The position numbers were made by a program, and so were the translations under genes. From a virus: 60,088 nucleotides of DNA. Numbering within the stretch: the first letter of the stretch is position 1; the number at the start of each line of letters is the position of its first letter. Below, piece by piece: positions 26,482-49,490 of this stretch. The notes under the pieces are model-generated. The model was not told where the DNA came from, searched no databases, and saw nothing but the letters and a program-made list of their open reading frames with translations. The stretch covers positions 1 to 60,088 of the IMG/VR virus record IMGVR_UViG_3300021963_006531; one strand, given 5' to 3'.

Positions 26482-26853
26482 ATGACTACAAAAGACTTAG
26501 AAAAAGAAATAGAATTAGCTGAAGATCTAAAAGGCAAGTTAGATCAAATTGAAGGCAAAAAAACATCAAAAAGATCAAAGAAAACCGTTTCGCAAGAAGT
26601 TAAAAGTCCAACCGACGCAGACAAAACTGCTAATGTGGGTGAATTGGATTTGATGAAACAAAAATTAGTTCAGCTGGAAGAAATTAAAGAAGAAAACAAT
26701 TATCCAGATCCAGTAAAACATAAACATATTAGTTTTATTAAAAGTGGCTTTAGAATTTTAGCAGGTGCTACTTTATTTTTTGGTGAGTTCGCTATAGCAG
26801 GTGTTTTGTTTATTGTTGCTGAGTTACTTGGCGTCTATGAAGAAATAGTATGA
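26482..26853 (+). CDS. membrane-anchored protein with charged N-terminal domain
   Basis: The first 85 of 123 residues are very charged and probably coiled-coil (ELAEDLKGKLDQIEGKK, then LMKQKLVQLEEIKEEN). Residues about 92-120 are hydrophobic (SGFRILAGATLFFGEFAIAG, then VLFIVAELLGV), enough for one or two membrane passes. The strong early promoter and AGGAGG site imply high early expression. No family recognised; an early role at the inner membrane is inferred. Confidence 0.7.
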   Translation: MTTKDLEKEIELAEDLKGKLDQIEGKKTSKRSKKTVSQEVKSPTDADKTANVGELDLMKQKLVQLEEIKEENNYPDPVKHKHISFIKSGFRILAGATLFFGEFAIAGVLFIVAELLGVYEEIV

Positions 26854-27254
26854 GAATAGGTTTTACTTGCAGTACGTTTGATTTATTTCATGCAGGGCAT
26901 GTAATGATGCTTGAAGAAGCTAGAAAGCAATGCGAGTTTTTGATTGTTGGATTACAAAGTGATCCAACAATTGATCGTCCAGGAATCAAAAATAAACCTG
27001 TACAAGGACTTTTTGAACGTTGGGCGCAATTAAGAGCTTGTAAATTTGTAGATCAAATTGTTCCTTATAGTACTGAAAAAGAACTTAGAGATATTTTACT
27101 TTCTTTTCCCATTAATGTTAGAATATTAGGTGAAGAGTATGCAGGTAAAGAATTCACTGGTCATGACATTCCTATGGAATTTTATTTTAATCAACGTAAA
27201 CACAGTTTTTCAACAAGAGAATTAAGACAACGAGTTATAGAGGCTAATAAATGA
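26850..27254 (+). CDS. cytidylyltransferase-like nucleotidyltransferase (TagD type)
   Basis: A 134-residue HxGH nucleotidyltransferase. The family motif is F-D-L-F-H-A-G-H at residues 10-17, followed by the second site FSTRELRQRV (equivalent of the ISSTxIR motif). In TagD and related enzymes this fold joins CTP to glycerol-3-phosphate or sugar phosphates; other members use nicotinamide mononucleotide or pantetheine phosphate. The length fits the TagD subgroup. The start overlaps the preceding gene (ATGA) and its end overlaps the clamp loader. The substrate in this phage is unknown; a surface or nucleotide-modification role is possible. Confidence 0.8.
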   Translation: MRIGFTCSTFDLFHAGHVMMLEEARKQCEFLIVGLQSDPTIDRPGIKNKPVQGLFERWAQLRACKFVDQIVPYSTEKELRDILLSFPINVRILGEEYAGKEFTGHDIPMEFYFNQRKHSFSTRELRQRVIEANK

Positions 27255-39433: not shown

Positions 39434-39781
39434 ATGAAATTACTTGAATTCTTCAGCAAAGCAAACTCGGATGATGATGACGCTAAGATTGAGACCGATC
39501 TAAAAAAAGATTTAATGGGCTTTATTCTTGACGATGATGAACTATACAAAGAACACATTCTTCCCCTTGTATCAAAACTTAAAAAAGGCAAGGATGTTGA
39601 AAAGGAAGATTTCATGAAAGCAATCAATCAAGGATGCTTAAAGTTCTATAAAGAAAAAGAGTTTAAAAAAGATCCTAACAAAATGTTCCCAATTAAGATG
39701 CGAAAGGAAATGGCAGGAGATTTATTAACCATCAATACCAAAGGCTCAAAAAAAGATGAAAATTCAAGAACTACTGATTGA
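39434..39781 (+). CDS. small acidic protein, first gene of the cargo run
   Basis: A 115-residue charged protein starting MKLLEFFSKANSDDDD, a variant of the leader repeated in the following genes but without the terminal glutamate. It is acidic at first and Lys-rich later (KFYKEKEFKKDPNKMFP). No domain recognised. It overlaps the next gene by 26 bases. Could be a core or scaffold component that goes with the cargo proteins; this is inference. Confidence 0.55.
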   Translation: MKLLEFFSKANSDDDDAKIETDLKKDLMGFILDDDELYKEHILPLVSKLKKGKDVEKEDFMKAINQGCLKFYKEKEFKKDPNKMFPIKMRKEMAGDLLTINTKGSKKDENSRTTD

Positions 39782-40142
39782 GAGTATTATAAAGCCTGAC
39801 TTATTGAACATGTTCCTAAAACATTGTTCTGAAGAATTAGGACTCGAATCTTTGCCTGAGATAAATCTTGTTGATGATAAACAATACTCCATTGATCATA
39901 AATCTTTTGGAGGTTATCAACCGGGAAAGCAATCAATTATATTAGCTACCAAAGATAGACACCCTGTAGATATTTTTAGAACATTGGCACATGAACTAAC
40001 ACATTATAAACAAGATTTAGATGGACAATTAGAAGATGATAATGTAGGCGACACTGGTAGCCCACAAGAAAATGAAGCCAATGCAAGGGCAGGAATAATA
40101 ATGCGTAATTTTGGTCAGAAGTTTCCAGAAGTATTTGAATAA
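39756..40142 (+). CDS. zinc metallopeptidase with putative capsid-targeting leader
   Basis: A 128-residue protein. The leader is MKIQELLIES (gp21-type site L-I-E). A HExxH motif H79-E-L-T-H83 in LAHELTHYKQD gives two metal-binding histidines and the catalytic glutamate, and ENEANARAG (105-113) supplies a likely third ligand. This is a compact zincin of the type found in many phages. If packaged and injected, it could cut a host protein at entry. Substrate unknown. Confidence 0.75.
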   Translation: MKIQELLIESIIKPDLLNMFLKHCSEELGLESLPEINLVDDKQYSIDHKSFGGYQPGKQSIILATKDRHPVDIFRTLAHELTHYKQDLDGQLEDDNVGDTGSPQENEANARAGIIMRNFGQKFPEVFE

Positions 40143-40150
40143 GGTCCGAT

Positions 40151-41167
40151 ATGCGTATTAAAGAATTATTTGAAGGAGGGTGGGATACCACAAAAACACA
40201 GAGTACAGAGTTAACACCTTCTGTAGTACGTGTGGCCCTTGGTGTGGTAGATCAATTTGTTAAAGACTTCAATAATTATACTAATTCACAAGGTATACCT
40301 CCAATACAGCGTGGTAAGCCAACAGGTAGTACTGCATACTATGAGCAAGACGAAGTAGAAAAACCAGATAACATTTACGGCGACATTGATCTTCAAATGA
40401 TTGCACCAATCAAAGAAAATGAAACAAATGCACAATTTACCAGTTACTGGAATAATTTAACTGATCAATTTGCAAAAAGTGGTCAAGTAAATTATATAGA
40501 TACCAGTGAAAGTAAACCAGGACATCCTATTATTCAAGTTGGACGTGATCAATTTGTACAAGTAGATTTTATGTGGCATCCAGGTAAATTAGCTAGATGG
40601 GGCGCGGCACGTGTAACTCCAGAGCGTGGCGTTAAAGGTATGTTATTTGGTAATATGTTTAGTGTTTTTGGTGAATTATTAGACATGAGTATACAACATG
40701 CTGGAGTACAATTAAAAGTTGTTGATGATCAACGTGTTCCATTTAGTAAGCAAAAAGGAACACAATTGATAACTGTTACTATTGAACCAGAAACGTTTGT
40801 ATTAGATACATTTAAATATCTTGCAAAAAGGATGGGTATTGATAATCCTAAAATTGATCCTTTGTTGTCAAAATTTCCTGGTAATAATATAAATGATGTT
40901 AAAATTTCCACATTAGTAAACTCTGTTAAAGGATTTGCTGCCAGTGCTCAAGCAAATGGAATGTTTGGTAAAAATGATTTAAGTAATTTTGCGTCAGGAC
41001 AGGATTTCTTAAATAAATTTTTGCAAAGATATGAAGAAAAAGCTATGATAGATGTACAAGGCAAAAAACGTGACAAAGCAACAACCCCAGAGGCACAGGC
41101 ACGTGCAGAAGCAGATAAACAAAAGATACTAAGTGGTCTTGAAATGGTTAAAGGATTATTCCAATGA
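40151..41167 (+). CDS. pol-beta-type nucleotidyltransferase with cargo leader
   Basis: The leader is MRIKELFEGG (site L-F-E). The nucleotidyltransferase core is visible: GSTAYYEQD (G59-S60) and YGDIDLQM with D78 and D80, the two metal-binding aspartates, then a third in FVQVDFMW (D139). This is the GS-DxD-D pattern of polymerase-beta-like enzymes that transfer nucleotides to proteins, RNA or small molecules (MNT, tRNA-CCA, DUF294 types). The C-terminal half is helical and basic. Product and substrate are unknown; injection with DNA is inferred from the leader. Confidence 0.65.
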   Translation: MRIKELFEGGWDTTKTQSTELTPSVVRVALGVVDQFVKDFNNYTNSQGIPPIQRGKPTGSTAYYEQDEVEKPDNIYGDIDLQMIAPIKENETNAQFTSYWNNLTDQFAKSGQVNYIDTSESKPGHPIIQVGRDQFVQVDFMWHPGKLARWGAARVTPERGVKGMLFGNMFSVFGELLDMSIQHAGVQLKVVDDQRVPFSKQKGTQLITVTIEPETFVLDTFKYLAKRMGIDNPKIDPLLSKFPGNNINDVKISTLVNSVKGFAASAQANGMFGKNDLSNFASGQDFLNKFLQRYEEKAMIDVQGKKRDKATTPEAQARAEADKQKILSGLEMVKGLFQ

Positions 41168-41541
41168 GAGCAAGAGAATTTGTAAATGAGGCGACAGAAA
41201 AGAAAATAACAAATAGGCAGGGCCAATCTCTTGCTGGTTTGAACGTTTATACTGACGCTGAAAAAAGAGATGCAACTTATGTATCTTATAGATTGGGAAT
41301 GGCTGTAGCAGGAACAGATGGTGAAATTGTTCCAGATACTGATGCTAGGAGTTGGATTGGCAAACAAAAATCAACACACCCTTATACTCCTGAAGAACAG
41401 GAAATGCTCAAAGTAGCTTACAAAGTAGTTGGTGCAGAATATACAGATTTGACAAAGGGCGATATGAAAAGTCGAGAACTAAAAACTACCAATACTGTTA
41501 GTCCTGTAGCAAAAATTAAAAAGAACAAGTACGGTGTATAA
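41164..41541 (+). CDS. conserved hypothetical cargo protein
   Basis: A 125-residue basic protein with the leader MRAREFVNEA (site V-N-E, a weaker match). It has a central phrase ARSWIGKQKSTHPYTPEEQE and a Lys-rich end. No domain recognised. It overlaps both neighbours by one to four bases, and the following two genes also have the leader, so it is likely a packaged internal protein. Confidence 0.65.
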   Translation: MRAREFVNEATEKKITNRQGQSLAGLNVYTDAEKRDATYVSYRLGMAVAGTDGEIVPDTDARSWIGKQKSTHPYTPEEQEMLKVAYKVVGAEYTDLTKGDMKSRELKTTNTVSPVAKIKKNKYGV

Positions 41542-42374
41542 TGAAAATAACTGAACTATTATTTGAAAGTGGGAAACGACTTGCCAAGCAAGGTATTGAA
41601 ATATCTAGAGTAGACAAAGTTGCCTTTCTAAAAGCCAAATCTATTTTAGATCCAATACTGAAAAAAGCTAAACTAAAGGCTGGTTGGACTGCTGGAGGTG
41701 CTGGTAGTTTTGATCCTGAACATCCTTATGGTGGCGGTGGCAGAGATGACAGTGGTGACATTGATATCATGATAGATCCAGAAAATCTTTTAAGAAGTTT
41801 TCCACCAAACATTGAAGAATATAATAGAGCAAGTCCAAAACCACTTGGTCCAAAAGCTATGGCTAACACATTAGCTGATCCAAATAAAAAAGCAAGATTA
41901 GAATTAGCTGCCAGTAAATGGGCATTGGCAACTTATATGACTCAAAATGGACTTCCAACTGATCCAGGAACACTTACTGTAGAATATAGTGCTGACGGTA
42001 AAAGTCATTCAGTAGACTTAATTGTTCGTCCAGAGAGTGCATGGGAATTACATGCACATGATTTCACTAGGGATCCTGAAATGAAAGGCGGACAACTGTT
42101 TACAGACGTGTATCCAACATTGGTTAAACTAGCCAGCAAATCTACTTTTGTAGATCCAAAGACTGGAGAAGAAAAAGGAAGTTTACAGTACAGTCCAGAT
42201 AGAGGACTAGTAGATAGAGAAACTAATCAAGTGGTTGCTATCAACAAGAACGATATTGCAAAAATACTTTTAGGACCACAAGCTACTGCAAGAGATATGT
42301 CTAGCATTTCTGGCATTAGAGACGCTCTAAAAAATGATCCAGCAAAGTTAAGTCAAGTTTTCCCTCAAAGTTAA
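41541..42374 (+). CDS. second nucleotidyltransferase with cargo leader
   Basis: The leader is MKITELLFES (site L-F-E). A nucleotidyltransferase core is present: GAGSFDPE with G55-S56, RDDSGDIDIMID with D73 and D75, and a third aspartate in HSVDLIVRP (D159). It is not closely similar to the gene at 40.2 kb, so these are two separate enzymes or a very old duplication. The rest is helical. Substrate unknown. The ATG overlaps the preceding stop (TAATG). Confidence 0.65.
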   Translation: MKITELLFESGKRLAKQGIEISRVDKVAFLKAKSILDPILKKAKLKAGWTAGGAGSFDPEHPYGGGGRDDSGDIDIMIDPENLLRSFPPNIEEYNRASPKPLGPKAMANTLADPNKKARLELAASKWALATYMTQNGLPTDPGTLTVEYSADGKSHSVDLIVRPESAWELHAHDFTRDPEMKGGQLFTDVYPTLVKLASKSTFVDPKTGEEKGSLQYSPDRGLVDRETNQVVAINKNDIAKILLGPQATARDMSSISGIRDALKNDPAKLSQVFPQS

Positions 42375-42377
42375 ACA

Positions 42378-42392
42378 AATAAATACATATTA
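42378..42392 (+). promoter_or_regulatory. late promoter, leaderless
   Basis: TAAATA at 42380-42385 followed by CATATT and ATG at 42392; expected start is one base ahead of the ATG. Confidence 0.65.
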
Positions 42393-45028
42393 TGAACTTA
42401 TTTGAACTGTTTAAACCTGTTAAAAACATTATTATGGAAGGCATTGACCATCCAGAAGACCTCATTATTTCGCAAGGTAGTGCAGGTGCCGACAGAGTTT
42501 TGGCAGATTTATCCAGCTTACAAAAAGATCCAAGTACAATCAGTGTTAAATGGGACGGGTTTCCAGCAGTAGTGTTTGGTAGAGATAGTACAGGCAAACT
42601 TGTTTTCATGGACAAACACATGTATGACAAGGTAGTCAAAGGTGCTATGGAATTTATGTCCATTAAAGATTATGACATATCTAGAGAAGCTAATCGTGGC
42701 AACCTTTGGGAAACAGAAAGTGCATTGCGTCCTACATTAGATAAAATTATTCCTAACGTAAAAGATCAATATTGGATGGGAGACTTGATGTGGACTGGTA
42801 CTCCTAAAACTTCTGATGGCTACTTTGTTTTTAAACCTAACACCGTAGAATATCGTGTTAAAATTGATGATACTCCTGGACGTGGCAATACATTAAGCGA
42901 TCAAATCGCACGTAGTATTGGTGGTATTGCGGTACATACTTTTATTCCTGGTCTTGGTCAATCAGACCAACCATTGATTGGCTTAAAAGGTTTAAGAGAA
43001 AACGAAGGAATTGTTTTTCTTGTAGGAGAAATGAGAGACAAACCAAAAGTTGGAATTAATTCAGCTTTATTAAATCAAACTAAGGCTATTATTAGTCAAC
43101 ACAGAACAGCCGTTGATAAATTTATTTCAGATCTAACAGCAATGAAGGGCAAAGCAGTTATTACTGCCATGGGGCCTTTTATTACACGTATGCTTGAAGA
43201 AGATGATATATCTGGTAATATTGTTCCAAGATTTTTAGAATTTCTAAAAGAGCGTCTAAATGACACTGCACAAAATAAATTTTTAGGCGCTAAGAAAGAC
43301 GGTTGGTTATATCAAGAACAGGGCGGTGGTCCAGGACTATTAGGTATTTGGACAATGTGGGCCGCAATTACAGAATTAAAAACTCACATAAAACAACAAA
43401 TTGACACACAGCAACAAGGTAGTGAAATTATTGCTATAACTGATGGTGTTAATGCACACGAAGGTTATGTATTTGGTTCAGGAAAAGACAAATTAAAATT
43501 AATTGATCGTTTAGGTTTTAGTCGTGCTAATTTTGCTAAACATCGTGTACCAGATGATGAAATAGAAGCAAAGAGCAAAATGCCAATGGCAACTTTTTGT
43601 TTTGGTCGTATGAATCCTCCAACACTTGGTCACGGACTTGTGATACAAAAAACTTTAGAAGTAGGTGGTGAAAATTCTTTTATCTTTTTAAGTAATAGCC
43701 ACGACGCTAGTGAAAATCCAATTGATCCAACTACTAAAGCACAATTTGTAGCGCAAATATATCCTAACGCAGCCGACAAACTTGTACAAGATTTTGTACA
43801 AGGACCAATATATGCAGCCAATTGGTTATATAGTAAAGGTTTTAGAAATATGACATTTGTTGCAGGTAGCGATAGATTAGGAAAAGAAAAAGGTAGTATT
43901 GAAAAACTTTTAACCAGTTGGAACAGTGGTCCAATACGCTCCACAGATCCTGCAGGTGCAAGAGAGCATGTTGTTATTAAATTTGAGAGTAGCGGTCAGC
44001 GTGATCCTGATTCCGAGGGGGTGACCGGTTACAGTGGAACAAAAGCTCGCCAAGCGGCGGAAACTGGCAACGAGCAGTTATTCCAGAAATATACAGGTGT
44101 TGGTCCTGACGTCGTTGTAAACGGCAAAACATTATATCAAGCAACAAGAGAAGGTATGGGGATTAAAGATGAAAAACCAACAGCCCAGTCATCTCCTGTT
44201 AAGCAACCTGCTCAACCCAATTTACAAGTAACTAAAAAAGTTCCAGGCAAGGCTCCAATTAGTAAGGAAGTAGATTCTATGAACGAATCAAAACTACGCG
44301 ACAAAGAAGATTTAAAAGCAAAACGTAAGGCTCTGCAAGATATCCAGATGGATAAACATACACATAAAGATCCAGAATTAAAAGCAGAACTAGCAAGAAG
44401 AAAAGCGTCTTTAGAAAAAGAAGCAAAGAAAATGAATCTGTCTGAATCAATCGTCCACGCATACGGTATTTTTGAAGAACAACAATCATTCTTAGACAAA
44501 ATAAAATCAGCTTTTAAAAGCCAAAGTCCTGTAAATGATAAAGTAAAGTATGGTGATACTGCTTATCCCAAATCACCTTTACAACCAGTAAGAGATAAAT
44601 TTCAATCAGGAACATTGGATGTTAATCCAGATAGTACCATTGGAAGATTAAACCAGCGCAATGCCGCAATAAAAGCAGCCGGTGATGAAGCCAATGAAGA
44701 TCGTGTTAAAATGGCTGCTAGAAAAAATGTGTCTGAAGCACCGATCCAAATGGACCCAGACAATCCAAACGATCCAATGGTCATGCCTCCTGGACTTAAC
44801 CCAGGCAAACTAAGTTATAGAAAAGCAAGAGCGGCTGCACAATTAGCAGACCTTGCACGGATGGCTGCTGAAGCAAATGAAAAAAATAGTGCTATAATGT
44901 GGGACTCAATCGTTAGACACTTTCCTGAATTAGAAACAAATATTCGTAGCATTCAACACGGACAAGACGAATTACAAAAATTAAGAAGCAAAGGCGGAGT
45001 GCGTAGTAGGGGCATAGACAAAATATGA
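42392..45028 (+). CDS. nucleic-acid ligase-like + NMNAT-like fusion, putative cargo protein
   Basis: An 878-residue protein. After a leader variant (MNLFELFKPV) the N-terminal part looks like a ligase-fold nucleotidyltransferase: the K-x-D-G motif in SVKWDGFPAV (K53), a GDLMWTG segment, EGIVF (205-209, motif IV-like), and AHEGYVFGSGKDKLKLID near 355-370 (motif V-like). Residues about 400-590 have the HxGH-type core FGRMNPPTLGHG (404-415), GSDRLGKEKG and YSGTKARQAAE, as in nicotinamide-nucleotide adenylyltransferases. The last 280 residues are basic and coiled. It might repair nicks and make NAD, or modify RNA ends; this pairing is unusual. The leaderless late promoter precedes it. Confidence 0.7.
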   Translation: MNLFELFKPVKNIIMEGIDHPEDLIISQGSAGADRVLADLSSLQKDPSTISVKWDGFPAVVFGRDSTGKLVFMDKHMYDKVVKGAMEFMSIKDYDISREANRGNLWETESALRPTLDKIIPNVKDQYWMGDLMWTGTPKTSDGYFVFKPNTVEYRVKIDDTPGRGNTLSDQIARSIGGIAVHTFIPGLGQSDQPLIGLKGLRENEGIVFLVGEMRDKPKVGINSALLNQTKAIISQHRTAVDKFISDLTAMKGKAVITAMGPFITRMLEEDDISGNIVPRFLEFLKERLNDTAQNKFLGAKKDGWLYQEQGGGPGLLGIWTMWAAITELKTHIKQQIDTQQQGSEIIAITDGVNAHEGYVFGSGKDKLKLIDRLGFSRANFAKHRVPDDEIEAKSKMPMATFCFGRMNPPTLGHGLVIQKTLEVGGENSFIFLSNSHDASENPIDPTTKAQFVAQIYPNAADKLVQDFVQGPIYAANWLYSKGFRNMTFVAGSDRLGKEKGSIEKLLTSWNSGPIRSTDPAGAREHVVIKFESSGQRDPDSEGVTGYSGTKARQAAETGNEQLFQKYTGVGPDVVVNGKTLYQATREGMGIKDEKPTAQSSPVKQPAQPNLQVTKKVPGKAPISKEVDSMNESKLRDKEDLKAKRKALQDIQMDKHTHKDPELKAELARRKASLEKEAKKMNLSESIVHAYGIFEEQQSFLDKIKSAFKSQSPVNDKVKYGDTAYPKSPLQPVRDKFQSGTLDVNPDSTIGRLNQRNAAIKAAGDEANEDRVKMAARKNVSEAPIQMDPDNPNDPMVMPPGLNPGKLSYRKARAAAQLADLARMAAEANEKNSAIMWDSIVRHFPELETNIRSIQHGQDELQKLRSKGGVRSRGIDKI

Positions 45029-46254
45029 AAATTACACAATTATTAGAAGGCAGCAAGCCTCAAAAAATTCCTGCAAGTAAACCACGAAACTTTGTGGTCA
45101 AGAATCAGCAGACCAGTGGCGCTGGCTCACATAAAGACAAAAAGAAAGCAGCCAAGCAGGGTGATGTTAAGCATAAAAATAAAGACATGGAAATGTCTGA
45201 AGACCATTTAAACGAGTACGGCGATACTGCTAAAGGTCAGAAGATGCTGACTAAAGTTCAAAAACGTGCAGTAGATCGTGTAACAAGTAAACGAGCAGAC
45301 ACTGATCCTAAGTACGCTAAAAAGAATAGTGATACCGCTAATCGTGCTTGGGATAGAATGACAGACAAAGATTTAGAAGAAACTTTTGATGATGTTAAAG
45401 ATACTGTTGCAAAAGTTGGTGATAAAGTTAGCGACACCTTATCAAATATCTTACCAAAAGATATGCGACCTTTTGATAATGAAACAGCCGCAAAAAATGC
45501 CGCAACAAATTCTGCGGCATTTAAACCAGTTGTGAAGACTGCATCAGTAACACAAAAACCAATTAAAGAATCTAAAGTTTACGAGCAATATGTTGGCAAT
45601 GGCTCTAGTAAAAATATGCAAATGGCTGTTGACCAAGCCAAGATGCACGCCAAGATACAGGCTATGAGAGCAATACACGGTAACAATTTTCATGATAAAG
45701 AAATGGTTGCACATGAATTTGGAAAATTAGATATTCAAAGTGATGGTAAAGGCGGTTATAAAGTCAATGCTCCCATTACTGTACTACAACCAAAATCTAA
45801 TTCCATAGATAGCAGTCCAGCAACTAATAACATTTCTAACCCACCCAACAGTTATATGGATAGCAGTCCTGCTAAAGATAATGGAACAACTACTAGTAAA
45901 ATGTCTCCTATGGAAAGCATGGCAGACAGTATAGTTAAAGAAATGAATAGAAATCCAGACTTAATGAGTCAAAGCGATTATGATCGTTATCAACAAAGCC
46001 AAATGGATAATCAGAAACGCAATTTCAAACGTGACGAATTAGAACATGAACTTAGTCACGAAGACAGAGGTATGTATTGGGTTGTGGTTGCAAAAAATGG
46101 TAAATGGGAACATACTAAAGCACAGCCTAAACAAGAAGGTATGAATGCGGCCATGCGTTTGATTAGTGCATTGCATAGTAAATATCCAGGCATGCACTTA
46201 GGTATGCAATATCCTAATGGGCAAGTAGAAAATTTTGGAAAAGGTAGAAAGTAA
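45025..46254 (+). CDS. basic internal head-type protein
   Basis: A 409-residue highly basic protein with the leader MKITQLLEGS (site L-L-E) and a Lys-rich stretch GAGSHKDKKKAAKQGDVKHK that I recognise from T4-like cyanophage proteins of unknown function. Middle: AKMHAKIQAMRAIHGNNFHD; C-terminal: a small domain RGMYWVVVAKNGKWEHTKAQ. The charge suits DNA binding in the capsid or on injection. No enzyme motif seen. Confidence 0.65.
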   Translation: MKITQLLEGSKPQKIPASKPRNFVVKNQQTSGAGSHKDKKKAAKQGDVKHKNKDMEMSEDHLNEYGDTAKGQKMLTKVQKRAVDRVTSKRADTDPKYAKKNSDTANRAWDRMTDKDLEETFDDVKDTVAKVGDKVSDTLSNILPKDMRPFDNETAAKNAATNSAAFKPVVKTASVTQKPIKESKVYEQYVGNGSSKNMQMAVDQAKMHAKIQAMRAIHGNNFHDKEMVAHEFGKLDIQSDGKGGYKVNAPITVLQPKSNSIDSSPATNNISNPPNSYMDSSPAKDNGTTTSKMSPMESMADSIVKEMNRNPDLMSQSDYDRYQQSQMDNQKRNFKRDELEHELSHEDRGMYWVVVAKNGKWEHTKAQPKQEGMNAAMRLISALHSKYPGMHLGMQYPNGQVENFGKGRK

Positions 46255-46255
46255 A

Positions 46256-46690
46256 ATGGACAAGTATCATTTAGCACTAAAGACAGCATTTGCTAGTGAA
46301 TATGCTTTTTATTTAAAGGCACAAAATTTCCATTGGAATGTAGAGGGAATGTTCTTTGAACAATTTCACAGTTTGTTTGGAAAAATTTATGAGGAAGTAG
46401 GTGATGTCATTGACGACTTTGCAGAAAATTTACGCAAAGTCAATGCTTATGCACCTGCTAGTTTTAGAAGATTCAGTATGCTCAGCGAAATAGATGACGA
46501 AACAGAAATCTTAGAAGCAACAAGTATGTGTGCTACCCTTCTAGCTGATAGTGAAAAAATGGAAGAGATTTTTAAAATCACTTATCAAATGGCAGAGGAT
46601 AATAGAGATTTTGGTCTAGCTAACTTCCTAGCAGAACGTCAAGATGCACATGCTAAACATAGTTGGATGTTAAGAGCCACGTTAAAATGA
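46256..46690 (+). CDS. Dps-like ferritin
   Basis: A 144-residue four-helix protein with the Dps signature: FHWNVEGMFFEQFHSLFGKI (His and Asp/Glu ferroxidase ligands) followed by IYEEVGDVIDDFAENLR. Dps proteins form dodecamers that oxidise and store iron and protect DNA from oxidative damage. It lacks the cargo leader but lies within the cargo run, and its start at 46256 overlaps nothing. It could protect phage or host DNA during infection. Confidence 0.85.
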   Translation: MDKYHLALKTAFASEYAFYLKAQNFHWNVEGMFFEQFHSLFGKIYEEVGDVIDDFAENLRKVNAYAPASFRRFSMLSEIDDETEILEATSMCATLLADSEKMEEIFKITYQMAEDNRDFGLANFLAERQDAHAKHSWMLRATLK

Positions 46691-46983
46691 AACAGTACAG
46701 AGTCACTTCAGAAAATATAAACCTAAGTAGCGATGATGATTGCTATTTAGATCCAAACGATCCTATAAATGAAATCAAAGTATTACAGCATTTAGGTGGA
46801 ATCAATTCTGTAAGTAGACTACAAGAGTATCGCTTATCTCAGCAAGAAAGCAATATTAGTACTACTGCTAATGAAAATGCAAAGTTAATGAGGGAACACA
46901 ATATTAAACCTGGAACCCCTGAGTGGTTCCAACTTTGGTTTAGTTTACCGTATATGACTGGTGAAAAGAAGGTTGAAAAATGA
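46687..46983 (+). CDS. small conserved hypothetical protein
   Basis: A 98-residue protein with the phrase ANENAKLMREHNIKPGTPEW then FQLWFSLPYMTGEKK, which I know from small proteins of T4-like marine phages of unknown function. No leader and no enzyme motif. The ATG overlaps the Dps stop (ATGA) and the end overlaps the next gene, so it is coupled to both. Confidence 0.65.
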   Translation: MKQYRVTSENINLSSDDDCYLDPNDPINEIKVLQHLGGINSVSRLQEYRLSQQESNISTTANENAKLMREHNIKPGTPEWFQLWFSLPYMTGEKKVEK

Positions 46984-48044
46984 AAATACAAGATTTATTA
47001 GAGTTTGCTCCAACAGTGGATAAAGACTCAGCATTAGGAAAAGTATTAGGAAACCCTGATGTTCAAAACACTATTGACAAAATAGGTAATTCATTGTCCA
47101 ATGTATTCAAACCATCAGTTGAGAAAGGCGCCGATGTTGAACCTAAAAATACTGATAAGAAAACTTCAAAAAGTAAATCAAGTAGATCAGTGGATATTTC
47201 AGATATGGAGCCAGAATTTGAAAGACAAGGTATTAAAGACCCATTTGTAAAAAACGCATTGATGGGCAAGTTTCATCAAGAAGCAGGTGCAAAATTTGGT
47301 ACTACTGAGATTCCGTTTACTAACACATCAAATAAAAGAATTAAAGAAAAGTTACCGCAGTTAGCTGGTATGAATGATGACGAATTAAATGCACTTAAAG
47401 CAGATCCTAGAGCATTTTTTAATAGAGCATATGGCGGAGTATTAGATAATACTGGACCAGATGACGGTTACAAATTCCGTGGTCGTGGATTAACTGGATT
47501 AACTGGTAAAACAAATTATTCGGCTGCTTCACAAGCACTGTTTGGTGATGACAGATTAGTTAAAAATCCTGATTTACTTTTAGATCCTGAAGTAGACAAA
47601 AAGGCAGCAGTATGGTATTATAAACGTGCTGGTGCAGATAAAGTATCATTTAGTAATCAAGAAGACGCCAATATTTGGGCAATACACAAAGCTGGTGGTA
47701 AAGCCTATGCTCCAGGAACTAAGTTAGGAAATATTGCACTTGCTGATCTTAATAATAAAACTGGAAATATGACCAGTGGTACTGGCACTATGGTTGCTAA
47801 AGGCGGAGACAATACTGGCAAAATAATTGCAGGCAGTACTTTATTGGCTAAAGCAGATGAATTGATAAACAAATATAAAACAGAGTTGCCTAAATTTATA
47901 TCTTCAATTAGTGACTTATCTGGGGGTGAAGATGAAGTTGCTGTAATAATTAATGGTAAGAAAAAGAAATTTAAGAATAAAAAAGAAGCTGAACTAGCAA
48001 TAAAGTTAGCCAAAGATCAAGGACTTACAGTAGATTATGCGTAA
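46980..48044 (+). CDS. GH19-like lysozyme with cargo leader (virion muralytic enzyme)
   Basis: A 354-residue protein with the leader MKIQDLLEFA (site L-L-E). The catalytic module (about residues 75-230) has FHQEAGAKFG (candidate catalytic E101) and DGYKFRGRGLTGLTGKTNYS, like chitinase-type lysozymes. Unlike the cytoplasmic endolysin at 31 kb it carries the leader, so it could be packaged and help the DNA or tail cross the cell wall at entry. A lysine-rich C-terminal segment (INGKKKKFKNKKEAELAIK) follows. It overlaps the next gene by eight bases. Confidence 0.7.
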   Translation: MKIQDLLEFAPTVDKDSALGKVLGNPDVQNTIDKIGNSLSNVFKPSVEKGADVEPKNTDKKTSKSKSSRSVDISDMEPEFERQGIKDPFVKNALMGKFHQEAGAKFGTTEIPFTNTSNKRIKEKLPQLAGMNDDELNALKADPRAFFNRAYGGVLDNTGPDDGYKFRGRGLTGLTGKTNYSAASQALFGDDRLVKNPDLLLDPEVDKKAAVWYYKRAGADKVSFSNQEDANIWAIHKAGGKAYAPGTKLGNIALADLNNKTGNMTSGTGTMVAKGGDNTGKIIAGSTLLAKADELINKYKTELPKFISSISDLSGGEDEVAVIINGKKKKFKNKKEAELAIKLAKDQGLTVDYA

Positions 48045-48681
48045 ACCAGAAGTTTATTTAGATATGGATGGTGTTATAGCAGACTTTTTTACAGAGTATG
48101 CTAAACTTGCTGGCATTGAAAATGGCAACTATAGAGATATACCTCCAGCAAAAACTGATCCAACATTGAACAAAATGATTGGAACAGACTTCTTTGCTAG
48201 ACTACCAAAATGTCCTAATGCAGACGCTCTAGTAGATATGATAGTGAAAACTTTTGGATACTATCATATCTGTTCAAGTCCTCTAAGAGGAGACTTTGAA
48301 AACAGTGAAAAACAAAAGAAGATTTGGTTAAAGAAGAATTTAAAGCATCAACCAACTGATGTTATCATTACACCTAATAAGGCCAAATATGCTGTTCAAT
48401 CAGACGGAACTCCTAATATACTAATAGATGACAGGGGTAGTAATATTAGTGCTTGGGAGGCAAAAGGCGGTATTGGTATCAAATATCAAGCAGATGAAGA
48501 TAGTTTACAAGTTGTCATTGACGGAATAAAAAGAGCCTTTCAAGTAATTAAAGGTGAACAGAAACACGAACCTCAAAAGCTACAAAGTTTAGATCGAAGT
48601 AGCGGCAACTTAATTGCGAAAAGTGGCGATGATGAAGAACACGGTTCTACTTCTAAGATACCAGGTAAGGAACAACAATGA
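48037..48681 (+). CDS. HAD-family 5'(3')-deoxyribonucleotidase-like phosphatase
   Basis: A 214-residue HAD hydrolase. Motif I is VYLDMDGVIADF (D-x-D at residues 9 and 11 type), a Ser-rich motif II is CSSPLRGDFEN, and motif III/IV NILIDDRGSNI supplies the acidic metal ligands. This arrangement matches phage and bacterial 5'(3')-deoxyribonucleotidases, which dephosphorylate dNMPs. The 60-residue C-terminal tail is hydrophilic. Lies within the cargo run without leader. Confidence 0.75.
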   Translation: MRKPEVYLDMDGVIADFFTEYAKLAGIENGNYRDIPPAKTDPTLNKMIGTDFFARLPKCPNADALVDMIVKTFGYYHICSSPLRGDFENSEKQKKIWLKKNLKHQPTDVIITPNKAKYAVQSDGTPNILIDDRGSNISAWEAKGGIGIKYQADEDSLQVVIDGIKRAFQVIKGEQKHEPQKLQSLDRSSGNLIAKSGDDEEHGSTSKIPGKEQQ

Positions 48682-49490
48682 AAATTTCAGAATTATTAAC
48701 AGAAGCTGATATGCCTGAATCTCTAAAGGATATACCTGTGGTAAGTTTTGGTGATTATAAACTAACTGCTGGAGATGTTGCAGATGTATTACCGGGTGTT
48801 GGACCAGAAGATGTAATTGAGCAAGGAAAATATTTAAAAGATTTTCTTTCAACAAAAATTAAAGGCGATTATACAAGAGCAGATGCATTAATTGACATAG
48901 CAACGTTTTATCCAGCTTTTAGAATCAGCAAGTGGGCACTAGCGGCACGTGGTGGTGCAGGAGCCGCAGGTAAAGAAGTTGCCAAAGGAGCCTTAAGAAG
49001 AGAAGTTGGTCAACAGGTACAACAAAAAGCAGACATACTTCCCTCAATGAAAGACTCTAAAAAATCAGGATCAGGCGGAGTTTCGCCAATAGCTACTAAA
49101 ATAACATCTCCATCTAGAAAAAGAAAATATAAAGTAGGAGATCAAGTTCCAGTTGAAGTCAAAGGCAAACAAGAAGTGGGAGTCGTGTCTAATGTATTGC
49201 CTAATGGTTATGAAGTTGATATTAGTCATGTAAAAGATTCTCCGTCAAAATCAGTTAATATCCCTGAACCCATGTTTGAAGAAGCCAGCGCAGGCGCTAC
49301 TTCCGCAGGTAATATTGCCAGTACAGGGAATAGTCCTCATATAGCCGCAGGAACTCCAGCTGTTTTAAAACGATGGAGTGGGGAACCCGGAAAAATAGGA
49401 AAAAGCATTAAGCCTCCCAAAACAGAACCTCAAGATTCTGACGATAATCCTGTGACAAATCCCAAAGTTGGCAACAACTTAATTTCATAA
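48678..49490 (+). CDS. cargo-leader protein with KOW/SH3-like segment
   Basis: A 270-residue protein with the leader MKISELLTEA (site L-T-E, the closest match to the T4 cleavage consensus). The N-terminal half is hydrophobic and helical (WALAARGGAGAAGKEVAKGA, perhaps membrane-active), and a segment KRKYKVGDQVPVEVKGKQEV then GVVSNVLPNGYEVDI resembles small beta-barrel KOW/SH3-type modules. The C-terminus is a Pro/Ser/Lys-rich tail. Function unknown; likely packaged in the head and injected. Confidence 0.65.
   Translation: MKISELLTEADMPESLKDIPVVSFGDYKLTAGDVADVLPGVGPEDVIEQGKYLKDFLSTKIKGDYTRADALIDIATFYPAFRISKWALAARGGAGAAGKEVAKGALRREVGQQVQQKADILPSMKDSKKSGSGGVSPIATKITSPSRKRKYKVGDQVPVEVKGKQEVGVVSNVLPNGYEVDISHVKDSPSKSVNIPEPMFEEASAGATSAGNIASTGNSPHIAAGTPAVLKRWSGEPGKIGKSIKPPKTEPQDSDDNPVTNPKVGNNLIS

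Follow-up and report, generated by a model that had tools for sequence, protein, structure and literature searches.

A leader-bearing phage protein joining a DUF6267 domain of likely ligase fold to an NMNAT/PPAT-like adenylyltransferase domain

Results

Organization of the gene and its neighbourhood

The window analysed here is a 60,088-base viral record (IMG/VR IMGVR_UViG_3300021963_006531), probably a fragment, from a large freshwater phage. ORF calling on the window gave an 878-amino acid reading frame at 42392-45028 on the plus strand, exactly where a first-pass annotation had placed it. Its product is made up of an N-terminal leader (residues 1-16), a DUF6267 domain (17-395), an adenylyltransferase domain (397-590), and a C-terminal tail (601-878; 44192-45025, plus strand) that consists of a variable linker with helical-looking segments. 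The same annotation had called the tail basic, which is correct in sign but holds only mildly, with a net charge of +11 over 278 residues. Most fused relatives lack this tail or have another in its place. Its residues 615-677 (44234-44422, about 63 amino acids) are 57-69% identical to part of otherwise unrelated phage proteins (loci L044-L049), and by sequence this segment appears to be a shared C-terminal module.

The leader (MNLFELFKPVKNIIME; 42392-42439, plus strand) resembles the capsid-targeting propeptides of T4, in which a sequence of about 10 residues directs proteins into the capsid and the gp21 protease cuts after L/I-x-E (PMC9026906). A prohead-protease cut is predicted after E16, at IME/G (MNLFELFKPVKNIIME/G, the slash marking the cut), and the residues preceding it have the L/I-x-E form. 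The gene is one of nine leader-bearing genes at 39434-49490 on the plus strand, starting at 39434, 39756, 40151, 41164, 41541, 42392, 45025, 46980, and 48678. All nine have an MKIxELL-type leader compared to 1 of 50 other genes in the window (Fisher p 8e-10), and a [LIVM]-x-E/[GAS] site is found within the first 22 residues of 7 of the 9 and of 3 of the 50 (p 1e-5), p values that are optimistic because the pattern was defined after the cassette had been seen. These leaders make the nine genes a candidate cassette of injected proteins. Besides several members for which no match was found, it encodes a putative metallopeptidase (39756) and a glycoside-hydrolase-19/endolysin-like protein (46980). 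A gene lying inside the cassette at 48037-48681 has no leader and encodes a 5'(3')-deoxyribonucleotidase-like protein (NT5C, phrog_2643). The frame at 49514-50926 matches phrog_764, but we rejected its designation as a cytidyltransferase since its sequence has no HxGH core.

Two of the leader-bearing genes upstream are candidates for pol-beta-like nucleotidyltransferases. The gene directly upstream (41541-42374, plus strand; leader MKITELLFE/S) has the pattern GSF...SGDIDIMID, with GGAGSFDP and SGDIDIMID invariant, and its profile aligned, over the C-terminal part, with the domain found at the N-terminus of another DUF6267 lineage (hhalign E 3.6e-12). The other candidate (40151-41167, plus strand; leader MRIKELFE/G) has the pattern PTGST...YGDIDLQ and weak profile similarity to the other nucleotidyltransferase type. 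A PDB search with the profile of the directly upstream type returned nothing, and one with the profile of the other type returned weak unrelated matches only.

Conserved ligase-type motifs in the DUF6267 domain

Pfam assigned residues 18-383 to DUF6267 (PF19782; E 4.6e-33, 115.5 bits against a curated cut-off of 27), and the domain as a whole spans residues 17-395 (42440-43576, plus strand). In PHROGs this first part of the protein belongs to phrog_455, of unknown function, and the cyanophage cluster T4-GC_71 is the same family. More than 460 public phage records contain a DUF6267 match, almost all of them from T4-like phages of marine cyanobacteria; no mention of DUF6267 was found in the literature searched. 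Elsewhere DUF6267 is known as a family of unknown function, whereas here it is found fused, leader-bearing, and with a likely fold.

An alignment of 123 DUF6267 sequences, with identities down to about 20%, showed thirteen invariant positions: K53, D55, G56, P58, D131, P149, Y154, H182, K330, E357, G358, V360, and K369. The first-pass annotation had noticed a KWDG sequence at K53 followed by segments like motifs IV and V, and each of these was found with invariant key residues. Motif I is K53-W-D-G56 (42548-42559), in which K53 is the predicted nucleotidylated lysine; a motif III-like G130-D131-L132 (42779-42787) supplies an acidic residue; motif IV is E357-G-Y-V360 (43460-43471); and a motif V-like K367-L-K369-L-I-D-R373 (43490-43510) contains the invariant K369 and an Arg conserved in more than 90% of the sequences (all plus strand). 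Motif I, the acidic residue of motif III, motif IV, and the motif V lysine stand in ligase order, although the motif III position is usually Glu in ligases and is Asp (D131) in DUF6267. Because their key residues are invariant in 123 homologues, these motifs are not a chance resemblance. The pattern K.DG...EG.[VILM]...K was present in 191 of 198 DUF6267 ORFs compared to 6 of 963 other ORFs of at least 200 amino acids from the same loci, and the only one of 81 long frames in the window that contains it is the frame at 42392-45028. H182, P149, Y154, and K330 are invariants specific to the family for which a ligase counterpart was not identified in this analysis, and a large helical insert of about 120 residues (approximately 224-340) lies within the domain.

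The boundaries of the domain limit which ligases it could resemble. The predicted cleavage site and K53 are separated by only about 36 residues, too few to accommodate an NAD-binding Ia domain, and a Pfam scan of the protein gave no match to the NAD-ligase family PF01653. An OB domain with motif VI was not found after motif V, where about 26 helical residues precede the next domain; standalone DUF6267 homologues likewise end shortly after motif V. Given the missing OB domain on one side and the missing Ia domain on the other, neither a DNA ligase of the gp30 type nor one of the LigA type is indicated.

A likely ligase fold

The AF2 model of the DUF6267 domain had a pLDDT of 91.3 and a pTM of 0.85. 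When the model was compared to the PDB with VIA, the best 50 alignments were all to the ligase superfamily, with RNA ligases first. The best match was the Naegleria RNA ligase (185 residues, 3.9 A) with a Z of 8.5, near the value of 8 that the tool itself warns may be background; further matches included Trl1, an archaeal RNA ligase, T4 Rnl1, T4 Rnl2, and human DNA ligases. The titles of the Naegleria PDB entries name the mutants K170A, D172A, E227A, E312A, and K326A, and the spacing of E312 and K326 (14) resembles that of motifs IV and V in DUF6267 (E357-K369, 12). Among the predicted viral proteins of BFVD, once the family's own members had been passed, phage RNA ligases were the first matches to carry a name, with E values of 0.005 or weaker. 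Foldseek found no PDB match to the model below E 0.1 and no ligase below E 0.2, and the DUF6267 profile gave chance matches only against PDB sequences. The profile also did not score significantly against T4 Rnl2 and Rnl1 in hhalign, a null result that is uninformative because the positive control, Rnl2 against Rnl1, fails as well.

The first-pass annotation had made its ligase assignment depend on the fold around K53, and the model did not contradict the assignment there. With the invariant motifs and the VIA and BFVD matches, a ligase fold is likely for this domain. It shares with the RNA ligases (Naegleria, T4 Rnl1 and Rnl2, Trl1) the ligase-like core and the order of KxDG, EGxV, and the motif V lysine. 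It differs from them in having no detectable profile similarity, an Asp at motif III, the helical insert, and neither an OB nor a known C-terminal ligase domain. The fold ranking and the missing OB domain, the two grounds for a substrate preference, suggest that this would most likely be for RNA.

A HIGH-superfamily adenylyltransferase domain

The second domain (residues 397-590; 43580-44161, plus strand) was assigned to the NMNAT/PPAT-like adenylyltransferases of the HIGH superfamily from PHROGs, Foldseek, and VIA. The PHROGs matches, over about 393-602, were to the cytidyltransferase families phrog_3041 (E 1.9e-31) and phrog_395 (E 8e-21), and Pfam CTP_transf_like gave a sub-threshold match at 403-442. 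The core had initially been reported as HxGH; the actual signature is T411-L-G-H414, a TxGH inside GRMNPPTLGH (G405-H414; 43604-43633, plus strand), which is invariant or nearly so in A2 and A4. A model of residues 1-612 had a mean pLDDT of 82.9, with values above 90 for most of 400-490 and 556-590. Foldseek matched the domain to NadD (E 3.8e-4), and VIA to PPAT (Z 12.8), an archaeal NMNAT (Z 12.3, 17% identity), and NadM (Z 12.0), so that the NMNAT-like assignment was borne out at the level of the fold, with NMNAT and PPAT structures tied within 1 Z unit. The Rossmann-like fold and (H/T)xGH sequence that characterize the HIGH superfamily are both present. These models support a HIGH-family adenylyltransferase. 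We take the GRMNPPTLGH and SGTKAR (SGTxxR-type) motifs to lean toward NMNAT, and the reaction of the domain would most likely be the formation of NAD from NMN and ATP. With NadM, archaeal NMNAT, and PPAT (CoaD) it shares the HIGH fold at Z 12-13, GRxxPxxxGH, and the NMNAT-like SGTxxR-type motif; unlike in those enzymes, TxGH replaces HxGH and the partner is a ligase-fold domain, not a Nudix or kinase domain.

Recurrent fusion of the two domains

The fusion itself, as first described, is found repeatedly in relatives. In a set of 204 loci encoding either domain, the two were joined in one ORF in 64 and lay in separate ORFs of the same locus in 86, while 41 loci showed DUF6267 alone and 13 showed the adenylyltransferase alone; both domains served as bait and overlapping loci and partial contigs were included, so these counts are not frequencies. 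In a tree of the 123 sequences the NMNAT-fused state requires at least three changes, forced by strongly supported branches, which places the fusion of DUF6267 with an NMNAT-like domain in at least three lineages of T4-like phages as judged from the tree. The isolate S-PM2 has an intact 591-amino acid gene spanning both domains (LN828717), while in P-HM2 and S-MbCM7 DUF6267 is a separate gene adjoining a cytidyltransferase gene. In the NC_006820 version of the S-PM2 genome the DUF6267-NMNAT gene is frame-interrupted (loci L275 and L291 are both S-PM2).

A separate lineage has an N-terminal pol-beta-like nucleotidyltransferase fused to DUF6267. At locus L139 (1653-5000) a single 1,116-amino acid ORF, which continues past the end of its contig, joins a pol-beta-like nucleotidyltransferase of the type encoded at 41541-42374, DUF6267, and the NMNAT-like domain. 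An apparently split version at L037 (6001-8351) was rejected as a natural gene fission, as it lacks 55 bp that are present in L040 and has lost motif V with them; it is either a damaged gene or a product of misassembly.

Leaders and virion proteins in related phages

With fused and separate forms of DUF6267 pooled, a loose leader pattern matched 95 of its 118 distinct N-termini; it also matched 50 of 76 distinct N-termini of unfused adenylyltransferases, and when the partners are encoded separately both usually bear a leader. Pelagibacter phage HTVC008M, Stenotrophomonas phage DLP_6, and Methylophilales phage Melnitz are among the isolates whose DUF6267 bears one. Leaderless fused forms occur in L026 and S-PM2; the L026 protein begins at the predicted cut point (MA-GIAHPED). 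Of 11 related records, 8 encode a gp21-type protease, and no prohead protease gene was found in the 60-kb window fragment.

NMNAT-like proteins of the same family, unfused to DUF6267, were detected in the virions of S-SCSM1 (ORF91), S-SZBM1 (S-SZBM1_140), and S-CREM2 (ORF154), and the authors of those proteomes note that co-purification cannot be excluded (PMC9602691, PMC9146016, PMC10665884). Their N-termini are leaders: MKSFLQFLKEA in S-SCSM1, MRFRQFIIEA in S-SZBM1, and MKNFSSFLTEA in S-CREM2. In the same three phages the DUF6267 proteins have no leader at their N-terminus and are absent from the accessible parts of the published virion lists. By analogy with these relatives, and from its own leader, the 878-amino acid protein would be packaged, in keeping with its earlier description as a putative injected protein. 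The T4 internal proteins (IPI-III, Alt) share an N-terminal leader of about 10-16 residues ending in L/I-x-E (PMC9026906); compared to them, the cargo here is a two-domain enzyme. Phage polyvalent proteins are likewise multi-domain and predicted to be injected, and the available portion of that account does not include this domain pair among those described (PMC5512222).

Discussion

What the computations show is a likely fold, active-site motifs that are conserved, two domains that are repeatedly fused or encoded side by side, and a leader, and through them DUF6267, a known but uncharacterized family, acquires a likely fold, partner, and delivery route. We favour a reading, whose chances we consider evenly balanced, in which the protein is a head-packaged, injected bifunctional enzyme combining a ligase-fold and a HIGH adenylyltransferase domain. 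Residues 1-16 would direct it into the prohead, where a gp21-type protease would remove the leader after E16. The mature N-terminal DUF6267 domain would transfer a nucleotide from ATP to K53 and, right after injection, seal or modify nucleic-acid ends, most likely of RNA, while the joined adenylyltransferase would most likely turn NMN and ATP into NAD. The adjoining leader-bearing pol-beta-like transferases, sometimes fused, could supply missing nucleotides, and the protein possibly works with the neighbouring one. We infer the packaging of this particular protein, the use of ATP, the RNA substrate, the NAD product, and an anti-defence role from these features. More tentatively, T4-related phages may inject along with their DNA a pre-packaged module for nucleic-acid repair that acts before the expression of any phage gene. 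In it a ligase-fold enzyme would be combined, by fusion or linkage, with an NAD-type adenylyltransferase and a template-independent nucleotidyltransferase; DUF6267 would then form a new covalent nucleotidyltransferase family, with an unrecognized ligase-fold protein of cyanomyoviruses among its members.

Several other explanations were weighed. DUF6267 could be the overlooked DNA ligase of gp30-lacking cyanomyoviruses and their relatives, which in this phage would seal nicks or ends of the incoming genome. PF01068 and PF01653 are both absent from 17 of 24 DUF6267-bearing records (a count that ignores kinship and includes several fragments), among them nine cyano-, pelagi-, methylophage or related isolates, and PF01068 is present in all seven DUF6267-free T4-like controls; RNA_ligase PF09414 was found in 2 of 14 records. 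The cyanophage DUF6267 gene adjoins uvsX, gp41, and gp61, and a 2010 review that found cyanomyoviruses without a recognizable g30 ligase left room for a distant homologue, which its authors judged less probable (PMC2984593). However, the remaining 7 of the 24 records encode a canonical ATP DNA ligase alongside DUF6267, so the family is not a simple ligase replacement and strict replacement was rejected. The lack of an OB domain or motif VI, the precedence of RNA over DNA ligases among the structural neighbours, and the possible use of the host ligase by cyanophages also count against this explanation, which we find doubtful. The first-pass annotation had gone further, proposing that the NMNAT domain makes NAD as the adenylate donor for a ligase engaged in DNA repair or circularization. 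The repeated fusion would agree with such coupling, but the domains are often separate genes, PF01653 was found in none of 31 phage records searched, and both missing domains, Ia and OB, as well as the RNA ligases at the head of the structural ranking, argue against it. For RNA ligases of this fold the donor is ATP, and the NMNAT reaction itself already consumes ATP. NAD as the donor therefore seems very improbable.

Rather than joining nucleic acids, the ligase-fold domain could modify a host target in a capping- or AMPylation-like reaction, with the adenylyltransferase supplying or recycling its small-molecule substrate. H182, P149, Y154, K330, the helical insert, and the Asp at motif III suggest divergent chemistry, and the frequent partner is a small-molecule enzyme; since the standard positions of motifs I, IV, and V are all kept, we consider this improbable. 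It is also unlikely, in our estimate, that the two domains each counter host attack on their own, with the NMNAT refilling NAD depleted by NADase defences and the ligase fold carrying out repair, and that fusion serves only to share a leader for packaging. A single leader does serve both domains in the fused form, and NMNAT-like proteins appear to be packaged alone in S-SCSM1, S-SZBM1, and S-CREM2. Yet some fused forms have no leader, and NadV (PF04095; KVP40 as positive control) was found in only 3 of 27 DUF6267-bearing records, so most such phages would depend on host NMN. The likely ligase fold, packaging leader, and recurrent fusion partner make DUF6267 an enzyme that can be tested. The findings bear on whether cyanomyoviruses have an unrecognized ligase-like protein (PMC2984593) and on why NMNAT-like enzymes occur in cyanophage virions (PMC9602691), and the leader rule can serve as well to predict the phage proteins that are injected.

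Two minor observations concern other genes. In marine phages the genes directly upstream of DUF6267 often have SLK or EVK motifs that by eye look like PD-(D/E)XK (L001, L082, L093, L100, L280, and L284), which suggests that they may encode nucleases. Elsewhere in the window, a second small HIGH-type nucleotidyltransferase (phrog_7878, RfaE-like) is encoded at 26850-27254.
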